DNA of 64,000 nucleotides, taken from positions 62,001-126,000 of IMG/VR virus record IMGVR_UViG_3300042898_004347. One strand, 5' to 3'. The position numbers were made by a program, and so were the translations under genes. The stretch comes from a virus. Shown here piece after piece: positions 2,228-44,632 of the stretch (its first letter is position 1; every line of letters begins with the position of its first letter). The notes under the pieces are model-generated. The model was not told where the DNA came from. It ran no database searches and saw nothing but the letters and a program-made list of their open reading frames with translations.

Positions 2228-2244
2228 TTTAAAAGAACGAAATT
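2228..2244 (-). promoter_or_regulatory. boxA-like element before tmRNA
   Basis: AATTTCGTTCTTTTAAA on the minus strand, repeated exactly at 2810-2826 and in variant form at 1276-1290 and 8118-8133. In each case it lies just upstream of stable RNA. It resembles the rRNA boxA core (GCTCTTTAACA) used by NusB/NusE antitermination. Confidence 0.45.
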
Positions 2245-2317
2245 CAATTGTTTAATCCGTCCACGTTCACCGCGTAGCCCAAATCCCTTTTTGAAAAAGG
2301 ATACAGTTAAACAAAAT

Positions 2318-2391
2318 TGGATGCTGGGGATGGAATTGAACCATCAGCTCCGCGTTATGAGCGCGACGAGTTACCGTTACTCTACCCGGCA
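2318..2391 (-). tRNA. tRNA-Met(CAU)
   Basis: Anticodon stem CGCG/CGCG with loop CTCATAA gives CAU. T-loop TTCAATT, CCA encoded. The acceptor TGCCGGG/CCCAGCA has one C-A mismatch. One of three CAU tRNAs here (others at 4703 and 6233). Which is initiator, elongator or lysidine-type Ile cannot be fixed by eye. Confidence 0.85.
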
Positions 2392-2404
2392 ATAAAATGA
2401 ATTT

Positions 2405-2832: not shown

Positions 2833-2838
2833 GGTACA

Positions 2839-2867
2839 ATCATACACATGTCACATCAAAAGTAAAC
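2839..2867 (-). promoter_or_regulatory. early promoter of structured RNA/tmRNA unit
   Basis: -35 GTTTAC (2862-2867), 17 bp, -10 TATGAT (2839-2844). One of the best early promoters in the window. Confidence 0.85.
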
Positions 2868-2879
2868 AACAAAATGTGA

Positions 2880-3503
2880 TTATGGCATATATGTTTTACA
2901 TTCATCTAATGATAAAATTATCTTTAAATTGGGCATAAGTTTTTTAATAACATCTAATTTTGTTTTTTGAACATTCGCCGCGTGCGGATTTTTAGGATCG
3001 AGATATATGTCATGATCCGGCAGATAAAAATCAGGAAAATAATTATGAGTTCTACCATCAATCATTACATATGAAATAGGAACTTTGGGACGAATCCAAT
3101 TGATTCCTATTTCATCCAACCGCATTGCTAGAATTTCTTCCCAGGATGAATCTAAAGTGACAATAGTTCCATCTTTCTTTGTATATTTTCTTATAGATCT
3201 AACTAAACGTCTATGTTTTGATGCTAGTGCTTTTTGACTCATTAATGCCTTACTTTCAGGGCTATGAGTTTTTCCTAAATTTGGACTTGAATAATCGACA
3301 TTATCATATTTCCCATCAGCATGAGCTTTTTTAATTCCAGCAATACGCTTTGCTTTAGCTTCAGGAGTGCACATTTGAGTGCAGTTGTTACTCATTTGAT
3401 ACGAAGATCGTTTTGGGTTTTCTTTACACCACCTACTATGATTTGCTTTATTAGCAGTTGATAGACCTTCAAAATCCTTTTTACAGTATTTACATTTAAA
3501 CAT
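2880..3503 (-). CDS. homing endonuclease, Zn finger + NUMOD3-like + VSR/EDxHD-like nuclease
   Basis: 207 aa. Residues 1-30 hold a C-x2-C...H...C finger (CKYCKKDF). A NUMOD3-like DNA-binding motif (GKTHSPESKALMSQKA) lies near residue 78. The C-terminal half (about 118-190) has the pattern W..R.....Y.......PDFYLPDHDIYLDPKN, shared with the ORF at 6978-7583. This matches VSR/PD-(D/E)XK-type homing endonucleases. It is free-standing, between tRNA-Arg and the structured RNA. It probably promotes inheritance of the RNA cluster, as SegB does in T4. Confidence 0.65.
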   Translation of the reverse strand: MFKCKYCKKDFEGLSTANKANHSRWCKENPKRSSYQMSNNCTQMCTPEAKAKRIAGIKKAHADGKYDNVDYSSPNLGKTHSPESKALMSQKALASKHRRLVRSIRKYTKKDGTIVTLDSSWEEILAMRLDEIGINWIRPKVPISYVMIDGRTHNYFPDFYLPDHDIYLDPKNPHAANVQKTKLDVIKKLMPNLKIILSLDECKTYMP

Positions 3504-3516
3504 ATTTTATAGAATT

Positions 3517-3591
3517 TGGTGCGTCTACCAAGACTCGAACTTGGAACAGGAGCTTAGAAGACTCTTATGATAGCCGTTTCACCATAGACGC
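3517..3591 (-). tRNA. tRNA-Arg(UCU)
   Basis: Perfect acceptor GCGTCTA/TAGACGC, A73 and CCA. Loop CTTCTAA gives UCU. The 27-43 pair is mismatched. T-loop TTCGAGT. It follows a late motif and precedes the homing endonuclease. Confidence 0.9.
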
Positions 3592-3600
3592 TTATATGTT

Positions 3601-3608
3601 TATTTATA
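3601..3608 (-). promoter_or_regulatory. late promoter (TATAAATA)
   Basis: Perfect late motif 9 nt before the 5' end of tRNA-Arg. It reads tRNA-Arg and the homing endonuclease gene. Confidence 0.6.
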
Positions 3609-3610
3609 AC

Positions 3611-3648
3611 AATGAAGATTTCTGTCCTATCCGTTGAACGATCGAGGC
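3611..3648 (-). pseudogene. tRNA 5' half (broken tRNA gene)
   Basis: GCCTCGA TC, a D-stem pair GTTC/GGAC around AACGGATA, and the start of an anticodon arm are intact. The sequence then stops matching a tRNA and runs into the TATAAATA motif. No matching 3' half was found nearby. Confidence 0.5.
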
Positions 3649-3652
3649 AGAA

Positions 3653-3727
3653 TGGAGCGGAAAAAGAGACTCGAACTCTCAACATCTTCGTTGGCAACGA
3701 AGTGCTCTACCATTGAGCTATTTCCGC
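3653..3727 (-). tRNA. tRNA-Gly(GCC)
   Basis: Acceptor GCGGAAA/TTTCCGC, U73, CCA encoded. Anticodon stem CTTCG/CGAAG with loop TTGCCAA. Confidence 0.94.
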
Positions 3728-3733
3728 GTGGAG

Positions 3734-3741
3734 TATAAATA
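3734..3741 (+). promoter_or_regulatory. late promoter (TATAAATA), plus strand
   Basis: Perfect late motif 7 nt before the ATG of the nuclease gene and just outside the divergent tRNA-Gly. Confidence 0.7.
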
Positions 3742-3748
3742 CATTCCT

Positions 3749-4168
3749 ATGTACCAATATTCTTGCAAAATTAATAAAGTGATTGACGGCGATACTGTTG
3801 AGATCGACCTCGACCTCGGATTCAATATCGTTCTTGCTGGCCAACGAGTCAGAATGGTTGGAGTAGACACTCCTGAGTCCCGTACTGCTGATAAAGAAGA
3901 AAAGGCTCGAGGCCTCTTATCAAAGAAGAAACTTGCTGAAAAACTTCCAGCGGGTTCCTATCAAAAGATCAATACTCAGAAACCCGGAGCAAATGACGAT
4001 AAGTTTGGCCGTATTCTCGGTATCTTCATCCTGGAAGATGGAACAAATGTTAACGAGTGGCTCATCGAGAACAATTACGCGGTAAAATATCTTGGCGAGA
4101 ATAAAGAACTCGTCCAAGAAGCCCATGCAGCAAATAAGAAAATTCTTATTCGCCGTGGCGAACTTTAA
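3749..4168 (+). CDS. staphylococcal nuclease-like (SNase) endonuclease
   Basis: 140 aa single-domain SNase fold. Visible motifs are VIDGDTVEID, RMVGVDTPES (equivalents of Arg35, Asp40, Thr41 and Glu43 of Micrococcus nuclease) and DKFGRILG (Arg87 equivalent). The family cleaves DNA and RNA with Ca2+. The ATG at 3749 is preferred over one at 3713 because a late motif lies 7 nt upstream and the earlier start falls inside the tRNA-Gly gene. No signal peptide, so a cytoplasmic or virion role is likely. Convergent with the 82-aa gene. Confidence 0.8.
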   Translation: MYQYSCKINKVIDGDTVEIDLDLGFNIVLAGQRVRMVGVDTPESRTADKEEKARGLLSKKKLAEKLPAGSYQKINTQKPGANDDKFGRILGIFILEDGTNVNEWLIENNYAVKYLGENKELVQEAHAANKKILIRRGEL

Positions 4169-4171
4169 GCC

Positions 4172-4420
4172 TTAGTAGCCCACAGATACCATGCGGCAAG
4201 ATGTCGCAGCGGTAATTGTAGAAAGGGGTGACTTTTCGAGATAGAGAACTTCACCCGGAGCAATCGTCACTGTGGTCGTGGCGGCGTCTGCAGTCGTAAC
4301 CGTAAGAAGTACCGCTGTGCCGTTGTTATTATAAACGCGTACGAGTGAGGCGGATCCGATAGTTGATGCTGTTGAAACTGCAGCGTCTGTTCCCTGAAGA
4401 TTGAGAATTGTTGAAATCAT
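4172..4420 (-). CDS. small beta-rich protein, possible virion component
   Basis: 82 aa, rich in Thr, Ala, Val and Ser. It has a repeated beta pattern (VRVYNNNGTAVLLTVTTADAATTTVTIAPGEV is the central part) and ends CRMVSVGY. The composition is like small head or fibre proteins of T4-like phages. A late promoter 26 nt upstream fits a structural role. No firm homologue. Confidence 0.55.
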   Translation of the reverse strand: MISTILNLQGTDAAVSTASTIGSASLVRVYNNNGTAVLLTVTTADAATTTVTIAPGEVLYLEKSPLSTITAATSCRMVSVGY

Positions 4421-4445
4421 TGAATTTTAGGATTAAGGTGTAATC

Positions 4446-4453
4446 TATTTATA
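4446..4453 (-). promoter_or_regulatory. late promoter (TATAAATA)
   Basis: Perfect late motif 26 nt upstream of the 82-aa gene, just left of the tRNA-Leu 3' end. Confidence 0.65.
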
Positions 4454-4457
4454 TGAA

Positions 4458-4535
4458 TGGTACCCACGGTGGGAGTCGAACCCACAGTTGAACACATTTT
4501 AAGTGTGTTGTGTCTACCAATTCCACCACGAGGGC
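4458..4535 (-). tRNA. tRNA-Leu(UAA)
   Basis: Anticodon stem ACACA/TGTGT, loop CTTAAAA. T-stem GTGGG/CCCAC, A73, CCA. The variable region is short for a Leu tRNA, and the acceptor has a U-U mismatch at pair 5-68. Confidence 0.85.
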
Positions 4536-4545
4536 ATAACATAAA

Positions 4546-4620
4546 TGGTACCACTACGGGGAATCGAACCCCGATTACTTGGATGAAAACCAAGTGTCCT
4601 AACCGTTAGACGATAGCGGC
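4546..4620 (-). tRNA. tRNA-Glu(UUC)
   Basis: Acceptor GCCGCTA/TAGTGGT with two G-U pairs. Loop TTTTCAT gives UUC. CCA encoded. Confidence 0.93.
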
Positions 4621-4625
4621 AAAAT

Positions 4626-4699
4626 TGGCTCCCCGACCAGGTTTCGAACCTAGACTAGATGAGTCAAAGTCATCTGTGCTACCATTACACAATCAGGGA
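4626..4699 (-). tRNA. tRNA-Gln(UUG)
   Basis: Acceptor TCCCTGA/TCGGGGA, G73, CCA. Anticodon stem GATGA/TCATC, loop CTTTGAC. Confidence 0.93.
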
Positions 4700-4702
4700 A
4701 AA

Positions 4703-4779
4703 TGGTGGACCCGGTGGGATTTTAACCCACGATCTAGGGATTATGAGTCCCTTGCTTTAGGACACTAAGCTACAAGTCC
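4703..4779 (-). tRNA. tRNA-Met(CAU)
   Basis: Acceptor GGACTTG/CGGGTCC, A73, CCA. Anticodon stem AGGGA/TCCCT, loop CTCATAA. The T-loop TTAAAAT lacks the usual C56, which is odd. Confidence 0.87.
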
Positions 4780-4785
4780 TTAAAA

Positions 4786-4860
4786 TGGCTGGCAAAGTAG
4801 GACTCGAACCTACAACCCTCGCATTAACAGTGCGATGCTCTGCCATTGAGCTATATGCCA
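4786..4860 (-). tRNA. tRNA-Asn(GUU)
   Basis: Anticodon stem TCGCA/TGCGA, loop CTGTTAA. G73, CCA. The acceptor TGGCATA/TTTGCCA has one U-U mismatch. Confidence 0.92.
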
Positions 4861-4864
4861 AAAA

Positions 4865-5095
4865 TTATCCGTCGTTGCCAATGGCACTTACGGGACAGCC
4901 CTCGAGGGCTTCCATACACATGTCAATGCCTGCTTGTGTTGTGGGTTGAGTATGTACATATGAAAAGCCGCCATCTTCTTCACGAGTAAAGAAGTCTGGA
5001 GCAGTTTCACGGCAAAGGTCGCAGTCGATACACTGAGTGTCGACATAAAACTTCCCTGCTGCGTTCTGTGAATATCTATCCGTATTGTTTGCCAT
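4865..5095 (-). CDS. ferredoxin-like [4Fe-4S] protein
   Basis: 76 aa, start MANNTDRYSQN. The motif CIDCDLC (C-x2-C-x2-C) near residues 21-27 plus a C-terminal EGCPV supplies four Cys for one [4Fe-4S] cluster. The short acidic body is like single-cluster bacterial ferredoxins. It would be a cytoplasmic electron carrier. The partner is unknown; phage RNR or a host reductase are guesses. It is embedded between tRNA-Asn and tRNA-Pro and probably co-transcribed with them. Confidence 0.75.
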   Translation of the reverse strand: MANNTDRYSQNAAGKFYVDTQCIDCDLCRETAPDFFTREEDGGFSYVHTQPTTQAGIDMCMEALEGCPVSAIGNDG

Positions 5096-5117
5096 AATGT
5101 ATTTACGATTTGATAAT

Positions 5118-5194
5118 TGGTCGGGGCGATAGGATTCGAACCTACGACCTTCTGGTCCCAAACCAGACGCTCTACCAAGCTGAGCTACACCCCG
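5118..5194 (-). tRNA. tRNA-Pro(UGG)
   Basis: Acceptor CGGGGTG/CGCCCCG, A73, CCA. Anticodon loop TTTGGGA between CTGG and CCAG. Confidence 0.93.
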
Positions 5195-5199
5195 AGAAA

Positions 5200-5319
5200 T
5201 TACTTCTTCAGTTTAGACTGAACGACTTCAACTGCAGCATCAACCTTTGCTTTGTTTTTGCGAGCAACAAGAAGACCAGCAACGAAACCGACAATGAGTG
5301 CGAGGAGTAATGAGAACAT
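5200..5319 (-). CDS. small single-pass membrane protein, 39 aa
   Basis: Sequence MFSLLLALIVGFVAGLLVAR then a basic/amphipathic tail ending SKLKK. One N-terminal transmembrane helix (residues 2-19) with a Lys-rich cytoplasmic tail. A late promoter lies 33 nt upstream. It may be a holin-like or inner-membrane accessory peptide; no family recognised. It overlaps nothing and sits between tRNA-Pro and tRNA-Asp. Confidence 0.6.
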   Translation of the reverse strand: MFSLLLALIVGFVAGLLVARKNKAKVDAAVEVVQSKLKK

Positions 5320-5352
5320 ATGTTTATTGAGTTGAGGTTAACCGTACATATC

Positions 5353-5360
5353 TATTTATA
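5353..5360 (-). promoter_or_regulatory. late promoter (TATAAATA)
   Basis: Perfect late motif upstream of the 39-aa membrane protein gene. Confidence 0.65.
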
Positions 5361-5367
5361 TGTAAAA

Positions 5368-5445
5368 TGGCGGGATGGACGGGACTCGAACCCGCGACCT
5401 TCTGCGTGACAGGCAGACGCTCTAAACCAGCTGAGCTACCACCCC
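5368..5445 (-). tRNA. tRNA-Asp(GUC)
   Basis: Acceptor GGGGTGG/CCATCCC, G73, CCA. Anticodon stem TCTGC/GCAGA, loop CTGTCAC. Confidence 0.93.
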
Positions 5446-5909
5446 TAAAGTTTCACACAGCCATTATTGCCATTGATGTAAATCAAGAGGACTACTGTGT
5501 ATGTTAAATTATTTGAATAGATGTAGCTTTGCTTTATATGACCACACTTCAGCGAGTTTCTTATTTACGCATAAGCTCCAACACGTTTAATGTTTCCCAA
5601 TAAACGTACTGTTATGAACTCAGAGGCTTTTCGTTACTTCCATGTTTTTCCGCTGACGGTTAGACCCCGTGCTCGTACCGAAGATGGAAACAATCTTCTA
5701 CATTCCGAGCTGCTATTCAAAATTGGATCCTTCTGCCATACAAGTCTTCCAGAACATTTCCAGAAGATGAATGCACTTGTATGCGTTACACTCTTAAACC
5801 CCCTAAAGGAACGCAACCTTTTAAATATGTGATTGCCCAGTTTCTTAGCAACATGGAGCTTTACCTTAGCGCCGGCGAATGTAACGGTCTGCATAAACAC
5901 AGAAGAAAT
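5446..5909 (-). ncRNA. unassigned structured region, about 460 nt, between two tRNAs
   Basis: Open frames exist on both strands but none has convincing composition, a promoter or a recognisable product. Instead many perfect hairpins are seen: 5583-5589/5601-5607 (7 bp), 5680-5685/5693-5698 (6 bp), 5737-5744/5776-5783 (8 bp), 5782-5787/5810-5815 (6 bp), and 5455-5460/5495-5500 enclosing 5473-5477/5482-5486. Strand is inferred from the flanking tRNAs. Confidence 0.4.
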
Positions 5910-5984
5910 TGGCACGGATGGAGGGAATCGCACCCTCATAAGGCAGTTTTGGAGACTGCTGCACTACTAATGTACCACATCCGT
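5910..5984 (-). tRNA. tRNA-Trp(CCA)
   Basis: Perfect acceptor ACGGATG/CATCCGT, G73, CCA tail. Anticodon loop CTCCAAA. T-loop TGCGATT (unusual T54-G55). Confidence 0.9.
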
Positions 5985-6066
5985 AAAAATTAAAGCAGCG
6001 GTAACCTAATCCGCGGATGGACGAACCGATTCCAGGGTTCAAACATGACCCATACTTTAAAATAAA
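5985..6066 (-). other. tRNA-sized spacer with weak structure
   Basis: About 80 nt, the length of one tRNA unit. It contains GGGT...ACCC and GCGG/CCGC pairings but no complete cloverleaf. I see no ORF. Confidence 0.3.
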
Positions 6067-6068
6067 TG

Positions 6069-6144
6069 GGGCGATCAACGGGGCTTGAACCCGTAACCCC
6101 GAAAATCACAATCTCGTGCTCTGGCCAATTGAGCTATGATCGCC
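6069..6144 (-). tRNA. tRNA-His(GUG)
   Basis: Acceptor GGCGATC/GATCGCC, C73 as required for His. Loop TTGTGAT. CCA is only partly encoded, and no G-1 is encoded. Confidence 0.9.
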
Positions 6145-6149
6145 GTAAA

Positions 6150-6226
6150 TGGAGCGCCAGACAGGGATCGAACCTGCATGTGACTGTTTTGCAAACAGAA
6201 GTTTAGCCTTTCAACAACACTGGCGC
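6150..6226 (-). tRNA. tRNA-Cys(GCA)
   Basis: Acceptor GCGCCAG/CTGGCGC, U73, CCA. Anticodon stem CTGT/ACAG with loop TTGCAAA. Confidence 0.92.
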
Positions 6227-6232
6227 TTAAAA

Positions 6233-6308
6233 TGGTAGTAGCGGTGGGAATTGAACCCACATAAAAGAGCTTATGAAACTCTTGCCTTGACCAATCGACC
6301 TCGCTACT
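6233..6308 (-). tRNA. tRNA(CAU), Met or lysidine-type Ile
   Basis: Acceptor AGTAGCG/CGCTACT, A73, CCA. Loop TTCATAA. Third CAU tRNA of the cluster. One of the three could be Ile2, if modified by host TilS. Confidence 0.87.
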
Positions 6309-6319
6309 GTAAATTAATT

Positions 6320-6427
6320 ATTCGGTCGGAACTTCAATCGAAGGTCTTATCGACCCGCGCGGCTCACTAAGCCGTCCTTCACGTCGTTAAGTGGTACGAC
6401 AACACGGACTTCTACCGTTAACCGAAT
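6320..6427 (-). ncRNA. unassigned multi-hairpin RNA, 108 nt, closed by a 7-bp stem
   Basis: The ends ATTCGGT/ACCGAAT pair like an acceptor stem. Inside are GTCC/GGAC around GTCGT/ACGAC, then CGGCT/AGCCG, GGTC/GACC and CTTC/GAAG hairpins. No T-loop or anticodon arm of tRNA type. It occupies a tRNA slot between tRNA(CAU) and tRNA-Phe. Confidence 0.45.
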
Positions 6428-6431
6428 AAAA

Positions 6432-6507
6432 TGGTGGGAGCTTCTGGTATCGATCCAGATTCTTGCCGTCTTCAGCGGCACGTGAGCACCTGCTTCACCA
6501 AACTCCC
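6432..6507 (-). tRNA. tRNA-Phe(GAA)
   Basis: Acceptor GGGAGTT/AGCTCCC, A73, CCA. Anticodon stem TGCCG/CGGCA, loop CTGAAGA. T-loop ATCGATA is non-standard. Confidence 0.9.
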
Positions 6508-6512
6508 TAAAG

Positions 6513-6588
6513 TGGTAGACCCGGAAGGATTCGAACCTTCAATACAACGTTCGTAGCGTTGCGTGATAATCCGTTTCACTACGGGTCT
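6513..6588 (-). tRNA. tRNA-Arg(ACG)
   Basis: Acceptor AGACCCG/CGGGTCT, A73, CCA. Anticodon stem CAACG/CGTTG, loop CTACGAA. A34 would need TadA editing to inosine. Confidence 0.93.
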
Positions 6589-6595
6589 ATAAAAA

Positions 6596-6692
6596 TGAGT
6601 AGTACCGATTGTTCCGAGCACGGTTACCTGTTGTTCAACATACTGAATGATAACACCGACTCCTGTTTTACGAACAACTGGATTTCTACTCA
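6596..6692 (-). ncRNA. unassigned RNA, 97 nt, closed by a 7-bp stem
   Basis: Ends TGAGTAG/CTACTCA pair. A second 7-bp helix GTTGTTC/GAACAAC encloses about 30 nt. Not a tRNA on either strand. Same spacing as the tRNA units on each side. Confidence 0.4.
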
Positions 6693-6695
6693 AAA

Positions 6696-6781
6696 TGGTG
6701 GGCACGCTTGGACTCGAACCAAGGGTTATCCGAAGAGGGGACATTTACAGTGTCCTGCAATAGCCGCTATGCGACGCGCCC
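6696..6781 (-). tRNA. tRNA-Tyr(GUA)
   Basis: Class II tRNA with long variable arm. Acceptor GGGCGCG/CGTGCCC, A73, CCA. Anticodon stem GGACA/TGTCC, loop CTGTAAA. Confidence 0.93.
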
Positions 6782-6783
6782 GA

Positions 6784-6837
6784 AAAATTGTCATTTGAGT
6801 CAACCTCAATTTCGCCAATGACGTGGCGTTTGCAAAA
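6784..6837 (-). other. two-hairpin spacer
   Basis: CGCCA/TGGCG and TTGAG/CTCAA hairpins in about 50 nt between tRNA-Tyr and tRNA-Gly. It may guide processing. Confidence 0.35.
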
Positions 6838-6912
6838 TGGAGCGGTATCCGGGTAACGATCCCAGAACTCAAGTTTGGAAAACTCGCGTGTATCCATTAA
6901 CACCTATACCGC
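6838..6912 (-). tRNA. tRNA-Gly(UCC)
   Basis: Acceptor GCGGTAT/ATACCGC, U73, CCA. Loop TTTCCAA. T-loop ATCGTTA is non-standard. Confidence 0.9.
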
Positions 6913-6917
6913 AAAAC

Positions 6918-6991
6918 TGGTGCCTTCGACAAGAATCGAACTTGTGACTAGCGCTTATCAAGCGCTGGTTATACCGTTTAACTACAAAGGC
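6918..6991 (-). tRNA. tRNA-Ile(GAU)
   Basis: Acceptor GCCTTTG/CGAAGGC, A73, CCA. Anticodon stem AGCGC/GCGCT, loop TTGATAA. Its first 14 nt overlap the 3' end of the homing endonuclease gene. Confidence 0.93.
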
Positions 6992-7583
6992 TTTTAATAT
7001 ATTCCACATTTATATCTTTATTTAAAAGAATGATTATTTTTACAGAATTCTGTTTTGCTGCTAATTGTATTTTTTCTGCATCCAAAATGGCTTTATAATC
7101 GTTTTTAGGATCTAAATATAAATCATATTCTGTTAGATAGAAATCAGCAAAATATCTTTTATTGTTGTATTTTAATGATTTCGGTCGAATCCATTTTATA
7201 TTCAATTCATTTAATAATGAACTACATCTTAATTCATATGTACTCTGTAGTGTAACTTCATTACCATATGAATCATTTACTTTAAATTTTTTACTTCTTC
7301 CAGCCAAAGGTTGGTAACCACCTAAACCTCGATCTTTTGCTATTTTTGATAATAGTGATTTAGTTTCTTGAGTATGCGCAGTTCCTGTACCGGGACCAGT
7401 TTTTGGTCTAAAACATCTAACATCGGACAATACAGTTTTACCTTTATTCCATGCAACCCTCTCTACTTTAGGTTTAATGACTTTAGGTTTATCGTGCCAC
7501 TTTAAATGACGATTGAATGCGAAAAGCGATACGGCATTTCCACATTTAGGACAAATAGATGTTGTTGTTTTACCTTTGGGCAT
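6978..7583 (-). CDS. homing endonuclease, Zn finger + VSR/EDxHD-like nuclease
   Basis: 201 aa, start MPKGKTTTSICPKCG. An N-terminal C-x2-C...H...H finger (about residues 11-29) is followed by a linker with a NUMOD-like segment. The C-terminal nuclease region has the pattern Y.LRCSSLLNEL.I.WIRP...Y....YFADFYL.EYDLYLDPKN, homologous to the ORF at 2880-3503. The start is set by a late motif 5 nt upstream. The stop codon lies inside the tRNA-Ile gene and a broken tRNA abuts the 5' end, so it looks inserted into the tRNA array. Confidence 0.65.
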   Translation of the reverse strand: MPKGKTTTSICPKCGNAVSLFAFNRHLKWHDKPKVIKPKVERVAWNKGKTVLSDVRCFRPKTGPGTGTAHTQETKSLLSKIAKDRGLGGYQPLAGRSKKFKVNDSYGNEVTLQSTYELRCSSLLNELNIKWIRPKSLKYNNKRYFADFYLTEYDLYLDPKNDYKAILDAEKIQLAAKQNSVKIIILLNKDINVEYIKSLCS

Positions 7584-7588
7584 TAATC

Positions 7589-7596
7589 TATTTATA
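7589..7596 (-). promoter_or_regulatory. late promoter (TATAAATA)
   Basis: Perfect late motif, 5 nt upstream of the homing endonuclease ATG and directly joined to the tRNA 5' half. Confidence 0.7.
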
Positions 7597-7634
7597 GAGG
7601 TAGACGATGCTCTAACCAACTGAGCTACTAGACC
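7597..7634 (-). pseudogene. tRNA 5' half (broken tRNA gene)
   Basis: GGTCTAG TA plus a complete D-arm (GCTC AGTTGGTTA GAGC) and the 5' strand of an anticodon stem. The match ends where the late promoter of the homing endonuclease begins. The 3' half is not present nearby. Confidence 0.6.
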
Positions 7635-7639
7635 GAAAA

Positions 7640-7729
7640 TGGCGGAAATAGAAGGATTCGAACCTTCGGGGCTTTTGAGGACCCGAGACTTTAGCAAAGT
7701 CTTGCCTTAAACCACTCGGCCATATTTCC
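7640..7729 (-). tRNA. tRNA-Ser(GCU)
   Basis: Class II. Acceptor GGAAATA/TATTTCC, G73, CCA. Anticodon stem AGACT/AGTCT, loop TTGCTAA. Long variable arm. Confidence 0.94.
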
Positions 7730-7734
7730 TAAAT

Positions 7735-7824
7735 TGGAGGAAGGGGTGGGATTCGAACCCACGGTCGTTTTTAGGCGACTCAAGTTTTCAAGACTAGCGC
7801 CTTAAACCACTCAGCCACCCTTCC
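7735..7824 (-). tRNA. tRNA-Ser(UGA)
   Basis: Class II. Acceptor GGAAGGG/CCCTTCC, CCA. Loop CTTGAAA gives UGA. Long variable arm. Confidence 0.93.
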
Positions 7825-7830
7825 TTAAAA

Positions 7831-7906
7831 TGGAGCCCTCGGACGGGATCGAACCGACGACAACCAGTTTACAAAACTGGTGCTCTACCAACTGAGCTAC
7901 AAGGGC
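7831..7906 (-). tRNA. tRNA-Thr(UGU)
   Basis: Acceptor GCCCTTG/CGAGGGC, CCA. Anticodon stem CCAGT/ACTGG, loop TTTGTAA. First tRNA of the large leftward cluster. Confidence 0.94.
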
Positions 7907-32955: not shown

Positions 32956-33654
32956 TTAGGAAGTTTTGATTTCCGCAAATTCTGAGATCATTGGAAAGAT
33001 TGGAGCAAGGGCAAGAGCCATATTCTGCGCCAATTCCATATGTTCCTTCTGCGTCCCATTGCCCGAACGAACCTCGATGTAATGGATAAAGCTACGCAAC
33101 GTTCCAGAGACGTAAAGGCGCGAGACAGTATTACCCTCAGGTAGAATTGCGCGGGCTTGTTCCTTGGCAATACCGCGTTCCAATGCAGCTTTATAAGTTG
33201 TTGTTACTAAATCAATTACCTCTTGCTGTTTGTTTTCCCACCACAATTTTGTGGCGTCATCAGCAGTATTCAAGGAATTCTGACGATTCTTATCATCCTG
33301 AAGGCGAGCTTCACGCGTTACAAAGTCCAACTCTTTCACGGGATCCGCATAACGCTGGCTGAATTCTTGGAAAGAGAACGAGCGGTGCCGAAGAAGCTGA
33401 CGAGCAATATCCCGCGTCGTATTAACTTCTACGCAGGCAGACACCATCTCAAGTGGAGACCAATGCTTGTTGCGAATAAGGTAACGAATCAGTTTGTCCG
33501 AAGTCTCGGTATTGAACTGGTTCTTCGGATTCGAAACTCGTGCGCAAAATGCAATGAGATCCTGAAGGTCCATACTGAAATCTTCGATTCCAAGTGGTTT
33601 TAGGCCATCCGCCATCTTAGAGTGACTAATGAGTTTTACTTTTTTACTTATCAT
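32956..33654 (-). CDS. thyX: flavin-dependent thymidylate synthase
   Basis: 232 aa. RHRSFSFQEFSQRY (89-102) is the ThyX signature RHRxxSxxxxSxRY that binds FAD and dUMP; E/H-rich helices follow. It makes dTMP from dUMP using NADPH/FAD. The start at 33654 overlaps the upstream stop. Together with dCMP deaminase and gp42 this shows the phage controls pyrimidine nucleotides. Confidence 0.93.
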   Translation of the reverse strand: MISKKVKLISHSKMADGLKPLGIEDFSMDLQDLIAFCARVSNPKNQFNTETSDKLIRYLIRNKHWSPLEMVSACVEVNTTRDIARQLLRHRSFSFQEFSQRYADPVKELDFVTREARLQDDKNRQNSLNTADDATKLWWENKQQEVIDLVTTTYKAALERGIAKEQARAILPEGNTVSRLYVSGTLRSFIHYIEVRSGNGTQKEHMELAQNMALALAPIFPMISEFAEIKTS

Positions 33655-34084
33655 GATTGATTTTATGAGTGAGATAGTACCCAAGCATTTTTACGTTTTT
33701 CTGAGTAAAGTTAAACTGATCGCTGTAAATGCCACCATTACGTTGGATGAACTCTTCCGAGAAACCTTCCTTGCGCATACGGTTAATCATACCCCTATTG
33801 AGGATATATGCGCTAGAGCTCTTTTTCCCAAAATTAGGGAATACCATTATGGTACCCAGATCGGAATTGATTCTGGCTTTTGCAGCAATAAATGTTTGAT
33901 CAGAATTGATCGCCGTATCAAAATCAATGGATACCTTAATGTCTTTATTTTGAAGTTGCGCAGAATGAATAATGTCGTGAGCAAACTCCAGAACACACGC
34001 ATTGACATGAACGTCAGTTTTATATTGAGAATAGTCTATTTCTGGTTTTTCTTTTTCGTTATCGTCGTCGTCGTCGGCAAGCAT
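33644..34084 (-). CDS. hypothetical protein, 146 aa
   Basis: Acidic start MLADDDDDNEKEKPEIDYSQ, then a mixed alpha/beta domain (VNACVLEFAHDIIHSAQLQN). No motif recognised. Co-transcribed with thyX. Confidence 0.55.
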   Translation of the reverse strand: MLADDDDDNEKEKPEIDYSQYKTDVHVNACVLEFAHDIIHSAQLQNKDIKVSIDFDTAINSDQTFIAAKARINSDLGTIMVFPNFGKKSSSAYILNRGMINRMRKEGFSEEFIQRNGGIYSDQFNFTQKNVKMLGYYLTHKINHDK

Positions 34085-38233: not shown

Positions 38234-38540
38234 TAGACCCTAATTTATAATTACCAGTATCGAAAGCGTTTTGAATAATGTGGCTAAGAATGTCGCCGAG
38301 ATGGTTATTGAAGTCGTTTGATTCTTCAAGTATTTCTACGGTCTGTGGAGCCGGAGATTCATCGACCTTGAATTGAAAAGAAAGGGTGGCTGATTCTTTG
38401 TCTTCGTTGACCTTTAAGGAAACCTTTCCATAGGTAACAATGACGCCAGACCATTGGCCAGTTTTCAGCTTCACCGAATACAATTCGGAAGTTGGCTTTT
38501 CAACAAAAGAATAATCGCTGTCAGTAATTTTAGGATTCAT
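38190..38540 (-). CDS. conserved hypothetical between uvsX and 41
   Basis: 116 aa, start MNPKITDSDYSFVEKPTSEL. Beta-rich N-half (VKLKTGQWSGVIVTYGKVSLKV) and a polar C-tail. The 38540 start overlaps the uvsX stop and the end overlaps 41, so it is translationally coupled. Found in the same place in related phages. Confidence 0.65.
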   Translation of the reverse strand: MNPKITDSDYSFVEKPTSELYSVKLKTGQWSGVIVTYGKVSLKVNEDKESATLSFQFKVDESPAPQTVEILEESNDFNNHLGDILSHIIQNAFDTGNYKLGSNDKQPTNDNPSETS

Positions 38541-39576
38541 CTTCATCAATAATTGAAATGTTGCTGGTGTTGCTTTGACCATCGACTCCGAGGGTATAGC
38601 GTTGACGAATGTATGCCTTGAACTCTTTCGAGTCTAAGATTCCATTCCAGAATTCTTTGTTATAGGTATCCTTTTCACGATACTTTGTCTCATCACCTTT
38701 CTTTGCATACCAGCCCATAGAAGGCTTTGTAACAAATCCGCCCTCAAGGGCAACGTCGAGAAGGCCCGAATACTTCTCAACGCCATTTGCAAACGAGACT
38801 GAGATAGGAACCTTGGACTTTTCTTTTACGAAACGAGACTTGTCAACGTTGATCACGAAGTGATAACCCTCAATGCCTTCATCACCCTTGTCTTGCTGAC
38901 GACCAAGAATCCATACGGTATTGGCAGAGTAATAAAGACCCGTGCCGCCCGAGAGAACATCCTTCGGATACATGTCCTGCGTCTTGTACGTATGACCAAT
39001 TGCAACAAGAGGAATATCTTTCATTGCAAGGTGTGGTGTGACCATGCGGAAAAGACTCTTAAAAGCTTTTGCACGAGTCATATCACCCACAGACTTCTCA
39101 TTCATTGCATCCTCAACTTCTTTCTTCGAAGCAAGATTACCCACAGAGTCAATCATGATGATGACCTTGTCAGTCTTCTCAATACCGTCAAGCTGCTTCA
39201 TGATGTCGAATTTGAGATCTTCAACATTCAAGATTGGACAATGAAGAACTCGGCTCGTATCAATGCCAAAGGTCTTGAAATAGGACTGAGGAGAACCAAA
39301 TTCAGAATCATAGAACAGCACAACGGATTCAGGATATTTGCGCATATACGCAGCAACCATGATGAGTGCGAATGAAGTCTTGAAGTGCTTCGATGGACCA
39401 GCAAGGACCGTAAGACCCGATGTGAGACCTTTGTCAAGGTCTCCGGAAAGGGCAACGTTAATCATAGGAACGTCTGTTGCGATGCTTTCGCTTTGATTGA
39501 AAACCTTAGAATCATCCAAGGTTGCAGCGGTATCAATTCGTGAATTCTTTTTTAATTTTGCGAGTAGTGATGACAT
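38530..39576 (-). CDS. uvsX: UvsX recombinase (RecA-like)
   Basis: 348 aa. Walker A GPSKHFKTS (60-68), Walker B VIIMIDS (138-144), RecA-core GHTYKTQ and GGTGLYYSA. Forms filaments on ssDNA for strand exchange and recombination-dependent replication, with UvsY (62130). The -10 box is 6 nt before the ATG. Confidence 0.95.
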   Translation of the reverse strand: MSSLLAKLKKNSRIDTAATLDDSKVFNQSESIATDVPMINVALSGDLDKGLTSGLTVLAGPSKHFKTSFALIMVAAYMRKYPESVVLFYDSEFGSPQSYFKTFGIDTSRVLHCPILNVEDLKFDIMKQLDGIEKTDKVIIMIDSVGNLASKKEVEDAMNEKSVGDMTRAKAFKSLFRMVTPHLAMKDIPLVAIGHTYKTQDMYPKDVLSGGTGLYYSANTVWILGRQQDKGDEGIEGYHFVINVDKSRFVKEKSKVPISVSFANGVEKYSGLLDVALEGGFVTKPSMGWYAKKGDETKYREKDTYNKEFWNGILDSKEFKAYIRQRYTLGVDGQSNTSNISIIDEDES

Positions 39577-39615: not shown

Positions 39616-40614
39616 TTATTGATTCCAGTGAGGATAAAATTCTCTGGATAAATGAACAGATTGTGGTTTTTCCATGCAGGCAAAATCTAATTCGCCTTTG
39701 AGATTCATTAGCTTTGAAATCCATTCAAACACCTTGACATTGCCTTTGGCATTCTTATGAAGCTGTTCAACGAAGAGATTTCGAATATCATTGCGTTCAT
39801 TCCAGGTACCATAGAATGGAGTTCCCTTGTAATAGCCAGTCTTTGGCAATTTGCGAGACTCGTTTTCAATTGGTAGAGGTTCCCAGATTGTCACTTTGCA
39901 GTTACACGTCTTTGCAAGATCCTCACATTGCTGAACATATCCAGCAACAAGATCTCGAGTAGCTGCCTCAGGATTACTCTGACGAAGCAGATGATGGCGA
40001 ATGTCAATGTTTCCGAAGTACACTTCAATCTCATCGTACTTCAGTTTATTTGGTAATACAAAAGATTTGAGACCCGAAGTGATAGCACCATAAAGAGTTT
40101 TATATGGGACGCAATTCAGTTTCCATCCTGGGCGATACATGGAAAGAGCATGAGAATCTCCGATTGCCAGTTTTGCGCTTTCTAATTCAAGATCCGTGTT
40201 GATTACCGTCGCAGATGTTTCAATCCGGGCCAGATTAATCCAGTCGACTAGTTTCCAATCTGGATGCGATGCTGGTTCTTTATCAACCCGGGGTTTAATC
40301 ATCTCAGAGTATTTTGGGAAATCAATTGTGAGGGAAAGGACTTTACCAGTGAACTTGGACAAACGGACAATCTGGTCAATTGCACCAAATTGCTTGACGC
40401 CTCCAAACATATTGACAGTACCGCCCCAATCATTCCCATGATAGACTGCAATCGTATCAAATGCATTGTAATCCTTAATCTTGCCACCATGGTTGACGGT
40501 AACATCGTATCCCATGCATTTAAGTTGATCAGCATAGATTGCAGCCTGCGCGGCACGATGCGATGAAATCCGCTCCGAGATTGGAGCCATCGGTGTAGTG
40601 ATTAAGACTTTCAT
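39616..40614 (-). CDS. SGNH-hydrolase/acyltransferase-like protein in the modification cassette
   Basis: 332 aa. AIGDSHALSM (150-159) has the GDS(H) nucleophile block, YFGNIDIRHHL (199-209) the GxND-like block with Asp/His, and a C-terminal HLSREFYPH the final His. N-terminal 100 residues resemble the Rossmann half of a glycosyltransferase (KVLITTPMAPISERISSHR). An acyl or glycosyl transfer onto a modified base is a guess. ATGA overlap with the PLP gene. Confidence 0.5.
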   Translation of the reverse strand: MKVLITTPMAPISERISSHRAAQAAIYADQLKCMGYDVTVNHGGKIKDYNAFDTIAVYHGNDWGGTVNMFGGVKQFGAIDQIVRLSKFTGKVLSLTIDFPKYSEMIKPRVDKEPASHPDWKLVDWINLARIETSATVINTDLELESAKLAIGDSHALSMYRPGWKLNCVPYKTLYGAITSGLKSFVLPNKLKYDEIEVYFGNIDIRHHLLRQSNPEAATRDLVAGYVQQCEDLAKTCNCKVTIWEPLPIENESRKLPKTGYYKGTPFYGTWNERNDIRNLFVEQLHKNAKGNVKVFEWISKLMNLKGELDFACMEKPQSVHLSREFYPHWNQ

Positions 40615-41558
40615 GATTTAAAATAAGCGCGATTCTCTTCCATATCCCCGAGATCTTTCCATTTACGCTGGCTATTAATTTTTGAAATATCCACTTTAGA
40701 TAGATTGCGGTTAATGTGTGCATCCGCACCCACATTTATAAAGATTGCTCCTGGTTTTCCTTTTTTTACAAACCCTTCCCATGCTTTTGCGTCATATGCC
40801 GCAGTTGTTGGGAACGGCATTTCATTTGCAATCGGATGAGCTTTAAGGAAAGGCATAGTTGCCGTTACAACTTCAGCATCGCCAATTTCACCATCATGGA
40901 TATTTCGAGCAACTGCAACCCCGTAGGCTTTTGCATTTGGCCAGCCAATTTGAAGTGCCCGAACCATTGTGCCTGTTGATACAGCACACCAAATTTCAGA
41001 AGGTTCATGCCCAATTAAATTAGTAACCATATTAGCCATGTTTGCAAGTCCAGCAGTCACTGTTGCATTTCCAGTAAGACCAAATGGAAGATACTGAGCA
41101 TTATTCTTTTCTGCCCATTTTTTCGCATAGGAATTCAATACTGGCATTGCAGCAATCTTAAAGAATCGCATGTCTGTATGTGCATAGGCAAAAAGAGCAC
41201 CTTGATGATTCGATACTTCAGATGAAGCTGGACAAAAGAAAACACATTTCTTATTATACATCTGAGCCAACATGGCGATGGCATCCGGAGCGTGACCCTG
41301 CCGCGGTGCACAGTAGACTAAAGTATCCTTAGGAGTTTCAGCAATAACTCGTTCTCCGCCGAATGCCTTTAATCCACCCGGAGCAAAATCTGCTCTAAGG
41401 ATGTATTTGTCTCCGAACTGTTCAACAACTGGAGGATCGATTCGAGTATTGAACGTCCCCCACAAGTTTTGATAATACTCTTTTGCCTGGCTACGCGACA
41501 TCCCTTTCGGAATATCCTTGTTAGATGTGTCTTGAGTTACTGTGTACATGTTTTGCAT
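40611..41558 (-). CDS. PLP-dependent enzyme, fold type II
   Basis: 315 aa of the tryptophan-synthase-beta/ACC-deaminase type. FAPGGLKAFGGERV (59-71) places the Schiff-base Lys64; PRQGHAPDAIAML corresponds to the SNH region and STGTMVRAL to the phosphate loop. Amino-acid elimination, replacement or desulfhydration chemistry is expected. Translationally coupled to the transferase-like gene (22-nt overlap), so acts on the same pathway. Confidence 0.75.
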   Translation of the reverse strand: MQNMYTVTQDTSNKDIPKGMSRSQAKEYYQNLWGTFNTRIDPPVVEQFGDKYILRADFAPGGLKAFGGERVIAETPKDTLVYCAPRQGHAPDAIAMLAQMYNKKCVFFCPASSEVSNHQGALFAYAHTDMRFFKIAAMPVLNSYAKKWAEKNNAQYLPFGLTGNATVTAGLANMANMVTNLIGHEPSEIWCAVSTGTMVRALQIGWPNAKAYGVAVARNIHDGEIGDAEVVTATMPFLKAHPIANEMPFPTTAAYDAKAWEGFVKKGKPGAIFINVGADAHINRNLSKVDISKINSQRKWKDLGDMEENRAYFKS

Positions 41559-42700
41559 AGTTCCTTATATTTTTCTGCCGTGACTCCAGCGCGGCTAATG
41601 ACATAGTCGTCTGATGGGTGTACATCGAGATCGTTAAACGACTTAATGAGACCGAGCTCGAGCATCGGCTTCTGCCGGCCATAGGGATGGTCGTGAATAC
41701 GATGTGATGACCAAAGATTATCTCTGTCCAGATGATTATATGCAGAGCCTGGACGAACGTAGTTTTCAACCCAACGGATGAAATCACAGCACACGTCTTC
41801 TGCGTTATAAGGGAATGCTCCGGTATCAGATTGAATTTTCTCCATGACAAGATCGAGGAAAGCCTCGGTCTTCATCTTTTTGTTTGGAACTGCAAGATAT
41901 GAAATACATTCAACAGCATTTGAACCATAGTAAAATGGGGTATCCCGATGGACATACTGAGGAAACCAATCAGCAACGTCAGCAACAACTGCTGCATATT
42001 GGAAAGCAAACCTACGCATTCCATTTGCTTGATTCCAGCTCAACATGAATTCGCCAATTTCGCGAAGTGTCTTTTTGTTTCCAGCAACTAAAAAATCTGC
42101 AAGCTCAGTGGCCAAACGTGGAGCAAATTCGCAGAGGTAGTAATCGCCACCACGTTTATAACCTGCGGGTGGTTTTGGAAATGCAGGAAACTGGTATCCA
42201 ACTGAAGTGTAAAACGGAGACTTCTCGGCTTTCACGATTTCCGTCATCTCTGGAATTGAAGAAGCAGTATGAAGCTTGAACAATAACGTATTATGGTAAC
42301 CGGATGGTTTGGTTGCATAATTGATGGCAGAACCTGTTACGCGGTGAAGAATGAATACGTACATCCATTCTGCAAGAGTGAACTTCTTTCCATTCCAACT
42401 CGTGGCCACAGTCTTACGTTGCGCAGTATGGTTTCCTGATGACATCTTCATCCAATAGGGGTGATCTGCATTCCAACCATAAAAGCAATCATTCACGATC
42501 TGCGAGAATCCAGCAAATTTACGTTCAACCACATCGTAGAGCTCAACATTTTCAAGCAAAGCATCACCCATTTTAGACTCGGCATGAGTAAGCATCCCAT
42601 AAGGAGGTCTAGATGAAACGTTGCATTTCTCCTGTTGATCCTTTGCTAATTGATAGTAGCGAAGGAATTCATCGTAATAGTGTGTAGTTGAAAGACTCAT
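41537..42700 (-). CDS. amino-acid:DNA transferase-like protein (aGPT-PPlase-like)
   Basis: 387 aa, helical. Middle and C-terminal pattern FAFQYAAVVADVADWFPQYV...YYGSNAVECISYL, then AEDVCCDFIRWVENYVRPG, resembles the helix-hairpin-helix-related alpha-glutamyl/putrescinyl thymine pyrophosphorylase group, which attaches amino acids or amines to hydroxymethyl-pyrimidines in phage DNA. Family call is from remembered patterns and is uncertain. Neighbours gp42, dCMP deaminase and a PLP enzyme support a DNA-modification role. Confidence 0.45.
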   Translation of the reverse strand: MSLSTTHYYDEFLRYYQLAKDQQEKCNVSSRPPYGMLTHAESKMGDALLENVELYDVVERKFAGFSQIVNDCFYGWNADHPYWMKMSSGNHTAQRKTVATSWNGKKFTLAEWMYVFILHRVTGSAINYATKPSGYHNTLLFKLHTASSIPEMTEIVKAEKSPFYTSVGYQFPAFPKPPAGYKRGGDYYLCEFAPRLATELADFLVAGNKKTLREIGEFMLSWNQANGMRRFAFQYAAVVADVADWFPQYVHRDTPFYYGSNAVECISYLAVPNKKMKTEAFLDLVMEKIQSDTGAFPYNAEDVCCDFIRWVENYVRPGSAYNHLDRDNLWSSHRIHDHPYGRQKPMLELGLIKSFNDLDVHPSDDYVISRAGVTAEKYKELCKTCTQ

Positions 42701-42703
42701 AAA

Positions 42704-43150
42704 TTATTCGAATTTGACAAATTCCCAGGTAATACCTGCTTCAGTGAACATCTGCTGAGTCAGATTCCACGACTCTTGCCACGTTGCAGGTATTTCCTGC
42801 CATGGCATAACGATGTTTTTAATTCCAACTTGGATGATGCCTTTTGCACATTCAGAGCAAACTGGCAATCCATGCACAAACAAAATGGATCCATCAAGCG
42901 AGACGCCACTATAACTTGCGTTGTAGATGGCATTCATTTCTGCATGAACCACATATTTGTACTTCGTCGGACGATCAGCATACCGATCCGGAGTATCTTG
43001 GATTCCACGTGGGAAACCATTATAGCCCTGAGCTAGTACCTGACCCTTCGACCCAATGATGACACATCCGATTTTTGTGGATGGATCTTTCGACCATCCA
43101 GCAATCTCTCGTGCTAACTTAAGGTAGCGACCTTTCCACTTATTATCCAT
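42704..43150 (-). CDS. cd: dCMP deaminase
   Basis: 148 aa, start MDNKWKGRYLKLAREIAGWS. HAEMNA (69-74) and PVCSEC (C98, C101) form the zinc site. Deaminates dCMP to dUMP for thymidylate synthesis (ThyX). Overlaps the gp42 stop by 8 nt and lies 3 nt from the transferase-like gene. Confidence 0.93.
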   Translation of the reverse strand: MDNKWKGRYLKLAREIAGWSKDPSTKIGCVIIGSKGQVLAQGYNGFPRGIQDTPDRYADRPTKYKYVVHAEMNAIYNASYSGVSLDGSILFVHGLPVCSECAKGIIQVGIKNIVMPWQEIPATWQESWNLTQQMFTEAGITWEFVKFE

Positions 43151-43820
43151 TAATAAGTGTGAAGTGCCGTTCATAGACGTGGAGCGAGCCGACGTGCCAG
43201 ATGAGGTCTCCCATTTCATAATTATTTTCTCCGAGCGTGTTTAGATCTTGCAGAAGGCGGGTTTGTACTATGTATTGCCAGGCACGATCATTCTTATAAC
43301 CGAAGACAACATCATTGCTTCGCATTTGGACGATGGCATGAAGTTTATTGTCTCGAATAAGATATTGCACAGCATTCGTGCACATGAAATCGGAACAGCC
43401 ATCTTCGCAATAATGCTGGTGCATCTCTGGCCGAGTATAGATCATTATGGCTCTGCGACTATTTGGATTTGCAATAAGCTCATTTCGCGCAGAATTATAT
43501 TGCTTATAATTGGTTTCTGAGTAGATGCACCAGCCATAGTTTGAATTAATCCAGCCATCTTTCGTTGCAACTTGTTTCCAGATCTTAGGAGCACCGCCAG
43601 GAATATCATTGACATTCAACGACTGGGAATCATACCATTGAAGTTCAGCATTGATGTACTCATAATTTGGTTTGCCAAAGATGGCTTCTTCATCTGCAAA
43701 GAATGATGCGCCACATAACTCGAGTGTTTTAACACCACTCTTGTCTGTCACATAGGCACCATTCGTTAGAGCATCTTTAAAATGCTGACGAATATCATTA
43801 ACTCTGGGTAGATTTAGCAT
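43143..43820 (-). CDS. 42: dCMP hydroxymethylase (gp42)
   Basis: 225 aa, start MLNLPRVNDIRQHF. Alignable to T4 gp42 along its length: SDFMCTN holds the catalytic Cys147 (T4 C148), and MRSNDVVFGYKND carries Asp178, equivalent to T4 D179, which selects dCMP over dUMP. Makes 5-hydroxymethyl-dCMP for phage DNA. It ends at HVYERHFTLING, about 20 residues before the T4 protein ends. An upstream in-frame ATG exists but homology starts here. Confidence 0.93.
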   Translation of the reverse strand: MLNLPRVNDIRQHFKDALTNGAYVTDKSGVKTLELCGASFFADEEAIFGKPNYEYINAELQWYDSQSLNVNDIPGGAPKIWKQVATKDGWINSNYGWCIYSETNYKQYNSARNELIANPNSRRAIMIYTRPEMHQHYCEDGCSDFMCTNAVQYLIRDNKLHAIVQMRSNDVVFGYKNDRAWQYIVQTRLLQDLNTLGENNYEMGDLIWHVGSLHVYERHFTLING

Positions 43821-44148
43821 TGAGATGGCGGTTAAGAAAGTCACGATCAGTGCGCTGGCCGTCAATACCTTTACGGCAGAATGACACAAAGAAGGATGAA
43901 TAGTTAATGAGATCCTTTGCAGAGTCTTCAAGGGAATCGAAATTAGGTGCATAGTTTGCATCATTCTCCATTGCCTCAAGGACAGAACGAAGACGCAGCA
44001 CCTTTGTGTTCATGATGTCAAGGATTGACGCAGCACCGCGTGGATAATAATCAGCTTGACGAATCGTACTATTTGGATTCTGATAATCGTTGGACTTTTT
44101 GAGTTGCAGATCTGCACACTCTTGGAGGACTTTGATGGATTCTTTCAT
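43798..44148 (-). CDS. MazG-like/Nmad1-type protein
   Basis: 116 aa. LKKSNDYQNP...ILDIMNTKVLRLRSVLE...DSAKDLINY matches the DUF1599/nucleotide-modification-associated-domain-1 pattern: KxxDY turn, helices with acidic metal sites. It probably binds or hydrolyses a nucleotide, perhaps dCTP or a modified dNTP. It overlaps gp42 by 23 nt. Confidence 0.55.
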   Translation of the reverse strand: MKESIKVLQECADLQLKKSNDYQNPNSTIRQADYYPRGAASILDIMNTKVLRLRSVLEAMENDANYAPNFDSLEDSAKDLINYSSFFVSFCRKGIDGQRTDRDFLNRHLNAKSTQS

Positions 44149-44161: not shown

Positions 44162-44632
44162 TCATACACTAGTTATAGCAGTTTGTACAGTAAATTGTGG
44201 ACGAGAGCCAATAAAAGATGAACCATTCCAGTTCCATATTCCATAGAATTCATACTCATCAGAATCCATGGGATTCAAGAAAATGTAAATTCGTCGTGCC
44301 ACCGGAATACCTCGGGCAATTTTATCTGCCATTCCCTGCAATACGTTCCTGCAATTTGCAGCGCAGGTTGTAACCTTCACGTCAATCGATGTGATGCCAT
44401 CAGGCTCATACAGATCTTTGTATTTTCGATCATCGTCCACGTAACCTTGCGCCATAAGCCATAGCTCAGCGTAGTGGCCACGTAGGCACTGCTTTAGAAT
44501 TTCATCAAACGTACGATCCTGATGCACTGCAGGACTCGGATCCTCATGGATCCGTTTTGCCTCTTTTGAGGCGCGGGAATATAACGACTGTTGGTCGATA
44601 TCGGATTTCTTAAATGTGATAGCGTTCTGCAT
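44162..44632 (-). CDS. PD-(D/E)XK nuclease-like protein next to gp42
   Basis: 156 aa. RGHYAELWLMAQGY and EPDGITSIDVKVT (D..D-x-K) form a restriction-endonuclease-like core, with YIFLN strand at the end. Could degrade unmodified host DNA, as T4 EndoII/EndoIV do, while hmC protects phage DNA; inference from neighbourhood. Confidence 0.55.
   Translation of the reverse strand: MQNAITFKKSDIDQQSLYSRASKEAKRIHEDPSPAVHQDRTFDEILKQCLRGHYAELWLMAQGYVDDDRKYKDLYEPDGITSIDVKVTTCAANCRNVLQGMADKIARGIPVARRIYIFLNPMDSDEYEFYGIWNWNGSSFIGSRPQFTVQTAITSV

Follow-up and report, generated by a model that had tools for sequence, protein, structure and literature searches.

The stretch of DNA analyzed here, hereafter the window, comprises 64,000 nt (positions 62,001-126,000) of the 140-kb IMG/VR record IMGVR_UViG_3300042898_004347; its source is a T4-like freshwater phage represented by metagenome data only. 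The record, which may be incomplete, has a gene order of the T4 type, with gp41, a gp40-like gene, uvsX, a cluster of candidate DNA-modification genes, and gp43 in succession; the corresponding T4 interval reads 41-40-uvsX-segA-b-gt-42-imm-imm.1-43. The cluster occupies window positions 44148-39616 on the minus strand, and it probably makes 5-hydroxymethylcytosine (hmC) and then decorates this base by means of three proteins, here named P1, P3, and P2. Its genes overlap their neighbors or sit a few nucleotides apart, according to coordinates read from the DNA; the tight coupling of these genes, put forward in a preliminary description of this DNA, is borne out by their presence on one strand and by a linkage that recurs across 25 distinct P3 loci.

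The cluster begins with the gene for an Nmad1/MazG-like protein (43798-44148), a nucleotide pyrophosphatase-type candidate for a dCTP/dNTP pool enzyme that matches phrog_18404 (hydrolase) at 1e-11 and has a weak DUF1599/Nmad1 match (0.014). It shares 23 nt with the gene for a gp42-type dCMP hydroxymethylase (225 aa; 43143-43820, with the ATG at 43820 and the stop at 43143; Pfam Thymidylat_synt at 6.9e-17), followed by a dCMP deaminase (42704-43150; PF00383 at 1.6e-18, phrog_174 at 1e-41), whose open reading frame opens at 43219 and whose likelier start is the ATG at 43150. The 387-aa helical protein P3 (41537-42700), the pyridoxal phosphate (PLP)-dependent fold-type-II enzyme P2 (315 aa; 40611-41558), and the two-domain protein P1 (332 aa; 39616-40614) complete the minus-strand series; the P1 gene holds the position of T4 b-gt beside uvsX, whose UvsX-like recombinase product (38530-39576), assigned from gene order relative to T4, serves as a landmark. 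The Pfam scores for PALP in P2 (5e-4) and for Nmad1/DUF1599 in the first protein miss the curated cut-offs; both proteins match PHROG families.

The dCMP hydroxymethylase and the predicted base

Alignment with T4 gp42 (58% identity) agrees with the earlier assignment of a true gp42 dCMP hydroxymethylase: the equivalents of T4 C148 and D179 are C147 and D178 in the window protein, which also retains the equivalents of T4 E60, W82, S94, Y96, and D145 (E59, S93, Y95, and D144 in its own numbering for E60, S94, Y96, and D145). Each of the 45 distinct gp42 relatives in the collected loci keeps the C148, D179, E60, S94, Y96, and D145 equivalents. A structural study of the T4 enzyme assigned Asp145 the activation of the substrate water, and probed Ser94 and Tyr96 by mutation (PMC6400193). 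In Mosigvirus, a homologous enzyme produces 5-hydroxy-dCMP (Durham phage paper, PMC13390438); the RB69 protein ORF048c, taken from its annotation to be this enzyme, has C148 and D179, but F60, A94, F96, and E145 instead of E, S, Y, and D, and T4 W82 is not kept there either. Since the RB69 homolog carries both, C148 and D179 are insufficient as proof of hydroxymethylation; the original argument, that the dCMP-selecting Asp implies hmC, therefore stands for the base itself, through the further T4 residues kept in the window protein and its relatives, and falls for Asp179 as a proof on its own. The active-site residues of the window protein rule out 5-hydroxycytosine, the RB69-type base.

At the substrate-selecting position, the window gp42 and its relatives have Asp; the dUMP-type Asn was not found there. 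A thymidylate synthase of the ThyX type is also encoded in the window (32956-33684), and gp42 is therefore not required for dTMP supply. The retention of hydroxymethylase-type residues in the window gp42 and its relatives, combined with the presence of ThyX, points to 5-hydroxymethyl-dCMP (5-hm-dCMP) as the product and base precursor, a well-supported prediction from the alignments. Elsewhere, a 256-kb phage record with P3 (L302, G016) encodes an ordinary thymidylate synthase (Asn) together with a divergent, Asp-type gp42-like protein.

P1, P2, and the helical proteins P3 and c7

The N-terminal domain of P1 (approximately residues 1-145; 40180-40614) shows homology, by profile comparison, to the corresponding domain of T4 beta-glucosyltransferase (BGT). 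The BGT model PF09198 matches 13 of 33 P1 family members (best value 2.4e-4) and finds the P1 gene as its only match in the 140-kb record; hhalign of P1 against T4 BGT gives E=5.8e-5, compared to E values of at least 0.08 for the P1 family against unrelated families in a like set-up. Structures of BGT have N70 and F72 inserted into the DNA where the base flips out, with D100 as the catalytic base. P1 residues N68, F70, G72, and D98 align with BGT N70, F72, G74, and D100 (NxFGG motif), and position 98 is Asp in 26 of the 33 members; the structure of the BGT D100A mutant (1nzd) is among the PDB fold matches of P1. The alignment stops near residue 99; the C-terminal, UDP-glucose-binding domain of BGT was not found in P1, whose C-terminal half is SGNH-like. 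Since the N-terminal half of P1 is homologous to the BGT N-domain, the initial statement that no T4 glucosyltransferase is present was incomplete, and it remains accurate for the UDP-glucose-binding half.

The C-terminal domain (approximately residues 146-332; 39616-40179) is assigned to the SGNH/GDSL fold from an AlphaFold2 model of P1 (predicted local distance difference test, pLDDT, 86), from Foldseek, where this half matches the GDSL lipase 3p94 (E=2.7e-4, prob 1.0) in a list that also contains T4 BGT structures, and from motif conservation. It contains GDSH (152-155), GNID (201-204), and H321; among 33 family members, GDSH with S154, G201, and H321 are conserved in 33/33, and N202 in 28/33. 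The D-x-x-H of Block V was not found: Q318 occupies position -3 to H321, and the nearest acidic residue is E315. The description of the 332-aa protein as an SGNH-like enzyme thus applies to its C-terminal half; a single-domain SGNH reading was dropped in favor of two domains, given the BGT homology of the N-terminal half.

P1 homologs also occur in other settings. Aeromonas phage 44RR2.8t ORF233c (L065:6001-8388; 795 aa) resembles P1 in its N-terminal part (35% identity) and differs in its fusion to a C-terminal part that is weakly similar to HMUDK_hel, the helical domain of 5-hydroxymethyldeoxyuridine (5-hmdU) DNA kinases; it is annotated as a hypothetical protein, and a gene similar to SSF sodium:solute symporters adjoins it. 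Marine contigs place P1 beside an HMUDK_hel protein (4.5e-9) and beside C5-cytosine-methyltransferase-like and myo-inositol-1-phosphate-synthase-like genes. The 44RR2.8t fusion and these marine neighbors indicate that P1 accompanies DNA-hypermodification enzymes even without P3. The marine clusters next to uvsX (L061:2-5550 and L063:763-6461), which also contain polynucleotide kinase-like and sugar-epimerase-like genes, possibly represent a different hypermodification pathway.

P2 matches phrog_7093 ("threonine dehydratase") at 3e-73 and, as profile alignment indicates, is homologous to gp52 of Pseudomonas phage M6 (hhalign probability 98%, E=1e-13; plain BLAST yields a short match only), the PLP-dependent member of a thymidine-hypermodification cluster, in agreement with its prior description as a PLP fold-type-II enzyme of this kind. 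K64, the candidate Schiff-base lysine that would bind PLP, is invariant in 16/16 diverse P2 members, M6 gp52 included. In M6, the gp52 gene adjoins the ADDT gene (gp51), with radical SAM, HMUDK_hel, and uracil-DNA glycosylase (UDG)-like genes close by. A P2-like PLP region also lies inside a long protein of Erythrobacter phage R6L (gp1; L066:4810-7241) that is annotated as a DNA modification methylase.

P3, a candidate amino acid:DNA transferase (AADT)- or 5-hmdU kinase-like protein, is encoded in at least 479 IMG/VR stretches and carried by four metagenome-assembled genome contigs; it has no relative among 50,697 phage records, a deposited-phage collection that leaves out records very near the window, and neither P3 nor 34 diverse family members produced a convincing Pfam or PHROG match. 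Its functional hints come from Foldseek against BFVD: the nearest neighbor (62% identity) bears the name "Amino acid:DNA transferase domain-containing", a protein with 10% identity and likewise AADT-named matches at E=1.8e-3, and the helical-domain protein of the PhiW-14 5-hmdU DNA kinase matches at prob 0.54, so that, wherever a remote fold match has an informative name, it is that of an AADT or a 5-hmdU-kinase protein. The best non-self matches of the P3 profile, gp42- and thymidylate synthase-type proteins at E values of at least 0.1, were taken as chance.

In most relatives, a protein of approximately 330 aa, c7, lies between P3 and P2 or P1. It may be distantly related to P3, as suggested by hhalign (E=0.0056) and by a c7 profile whose best non-self matches are mostly P3 members, at E values of at least 0.4. 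Members of c7 rank near the top against the kinase profile, and the c7-kinase alignment pairs GTG/GPG and IExxxC motifs, at E=0.2.

Linkage in relatives and comparison with known systems

Linkage was evaluated in 25 distinct P3 loci whose flanks extend 5 kb or more upstream and 4.5 kb or more downstream. All of them contain P1 (25/25), and all but one contain P2 (24/25); gp42 was found in 20, the deaminase in 19, c7 in 14, and a UDG-like gene, c3, in 11 of the 25. The cluster is conserved beyond chance, and c3 adjoins P3 in these relatives, in parallel to the UDG-like gene of M6. In three close relatives (L006, L007, and L050), a 38%-identical allele stands in place of P2, with P3 92-98% and P1 78-97% identical to the window proteins; this allele swap would fit selection for an altered end group. 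In one large phage where no gp42 was detected, a CitG-like gene (triphosphoribosyl-dephospho-CoA synthase, PF01874 at 8e-11; L258:3935-4732) lies between P1 and P3.

The cluster resembles those of Pseudomonas phage M6 and Salmonella phage ViI, which combine an AADT, a 5-hmdU DNA kinase, and a PLP enzyme, in its base hydroxymethylase of the thymidylate synthase family, in the homologous PLP enzyme (P2 and M6 gp52), in the UDG-like neighbor found in relatives of the window, and in a helical, possibly transferase-like partner. In contrast to M6 and ViI, the window has a dCMP and not a dUMP hydroxymethylase and the additional P1; no radical SAM gene was seen adjoining the cluster, and P3 and c7 are not recognized by the ADDT or HMUDK_hel models. 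With the T4 pair of gp42 and BGT, the cluster shares the uvsX-42 gene slot, the gp42 ortholog, and the N-terminal domain of P1, including the BGT D100 equivalent; it differs from T4 in the SGNH domain that replaces the nucleotide-sugar domain of BGT, and in the insertion of two more enzymes. The 5hmC carbamoyltransferase clusters (MetaGPA, PMC8670742) are similar in their gp42-type enzyme, dCMP deaminase, and PRA-PH/MazG neighbors; unlike in those clusters, no match to Carbam_trans_N or a carbamoyltransferase domain was found in the 140-kb record, and a carbamoyltransferase reading was dropped. Chemical precedent for the amino-acid decoration of phage cytosine is provided by the CmoA/CmoX/CmoY pathway to 5-carboxymethylcytosine-glycine (PMC12783734), which differs in using a C5-methyltransferase homolog and an ATP-dependent ligase, and in making the handle on DNA, not from hm-dCMP.

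A candidate pathway on hmC and its alternatives

In the proposed mechanism, gp42 would convert dCMP to 5-hm-dCMP, which would then be incorporated into DNA, with the MazG/Nmad1-like proteins and the deaminase presumably shifting the dCTP pool. The BGT-like domain of P1 would flip out and deprotonate hmC in the polymer; P3, probably of the AADT/5-hmdU kinase group, would add an amine or amino acid at the 5-position; P2, as a member of the M6 gp52 family, could reshape the adduct, for instance through decarboxylation or the loss of a side chain; and the SGNH domain of P1 would carry out an acyl-transfer or ester-type step. In many relatives, c7 may participate as a second helical enzyme. The tested parts of this scheme, namely the base, the P2 and P1 homologies, and the linkage, are supported; the donor, the order of substrates, the activation, and the product are as we presume them to be. 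The decoration appears to be something other than plain glucose, and it may be of amino-acid nature.

Based on the gp42 residues, the relationship of P2 to M6 gp52, the BGT and SGNH halves of P1, the P1 relatives fused or adjacent to 5-hmdU kinase helical domains, the linkage, the c3 parallel, the names of P3 fold neighbors, and the ranking of c7 against profiles, we regard this mechanism as moderately probable. A more far-reaching version, which we consider somewhat less likely than not, is an hmC counterpart of the thymidine amino-acid pathway, with a chimera of a BGT half and an SGNH acyl-transferase-type domain, and with a PLP gene that is swapped between near-identical phages and varies the final group. 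In this version, P3 and c7 would constitute two new helical families, without relatives in the phage-record collection.

Several results weigh against the proposed mechanism. The predicted structure of P3 is helical and of moderate confidence (pLDDT 68), and the UniProt names of its fold neighbors may be automatic. Searches of the PDB by fold and sequence gave nothing usable for P3, with weak DNA-glycosylase matches at prob 0.06-0.21; hhalign against AADT and 5-hmdU-kinase alignments stayed at noise level, with the negative control, the M6 PALP protein, scoring equally high. The Pfam model ADDT (PF18724) has no match in P3, in the 34 family members, or in the 140-kb record, where HMUDK_hel (PF18723) is likewise without a match; the controls match in both cases (ViI, M6, and PhiW-14 for ADDT). 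Because the names are perhaps automatic, the PDB result is negative, and the profiles remain at control level, an AADT-like P3 is plausible rather than shown; of the previous label of the 387-aa protein as amino-acid:DNA-transferase-like, the fold search and the chain through c7 are suggestive, and the Pfam models and profile comparison contribute nothing above noise. Furthermore, c7, the likelier kinase, was sought in the rest of the genome as a candidate for the absent kinase and was not found in the window record, nor in 7 of 9 other contigs searched, several of them long contigs with P3, and none of the Walker-A candidates in the record resembles a modification kinase. No homologs of T4 gp1 and gp56 were found in the 140-kb record, where gp2 was the sole match among six T4 queries. 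The absences of c7, gp1, and gp56 carry little weight, since the record may be incomplete. Finally, there are large phages in which P1-P3-c7-P2 coexists with an ordinary thymidylate synthase, with a divergent Asp-type enzyme, or with no detected gene of this family; since these phages lack a T4-type gp42, the module may have substrates besides hmC.

The P1 architecture invites other interpretations. P1 alone pairs a recognizable DNA-base-handling domain with an acyl-transfer-type SGNH domain, and it is found with partners other than P3 and P2; conceivably, O-acylation or esterification of hmC by P1 yields the main product, and P3 and P2 make an acyl or amino-acyl donor instead of modifying the base directly. 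This is unlikely, given that the nearest P2 relative of known context sits in a DNA-acting AADT cluster, and that the P3 fold neighbors bear DNA-transferase or DNA-kinase names. The SGNH enzymes that match the P1 model are mostly hydrolases, which would suit an esterase-type eraser or editor of the modification, with hmC bearing a group made by P3 or by the host as the bulk base; the presence of P1 in every full P3 locus and the fusion of its homolog to a kinase-like domain in 44RR fit a biosynthetic partner better, and make an eraser role quite improbable. We give a similarly slim chance to a sugar decoration, in which P1 would be a very divergent glycosyltransferase and its SGNH likeness a superficial, Rossmann-like similarity: the BGT N-domain homology, the b-gt gene position, and the BGT structures among the fold matches would be accounted for, but the top fold matches are GDSL lipases and esterases, the GDSH, N202, and H321 positions are conserved as described above, and the C-terminal half has no glycosyltransferase Pfam match.

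In the literature cited here, phage hmC is decorated with sugars or with a carbamoyl group, and the cytosine amino-acid amide is built on carboxymethylcytosine; if true, a PLP/transferase-type pathway on hmC would widen phage DNA chemistry, and could yield new labeling tools for hmC, which is of broad interest in epigenetics. With its BGT-SGNH chimera, the cluster offers a directly testable link from glucosylation to a second chemistry on one and the same base. Among uncultured T4-like phages, the system appears to be common, and its enzyme families appear to be mostly absent from cultured phages; reference databases miss it because neither P3 nor c7 occurs in the searched phage-record collection.

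Two further features of the window concern other genes. P7 (156 aa; 44162-44632) has by eye the look of a PD-(D/E)XK-type nuclease, without a Pfam match, and its slot is filled by different proteins in the relatives L173 and L185; it is possibly a nuclease against unmodified DNA. The phage also encodes a transfer-messenger RNA (1854-2222) with the tag GINKALSNFFGFAEEMPLAA, which lies among 23 arrayed tRNA genes (176-7906).

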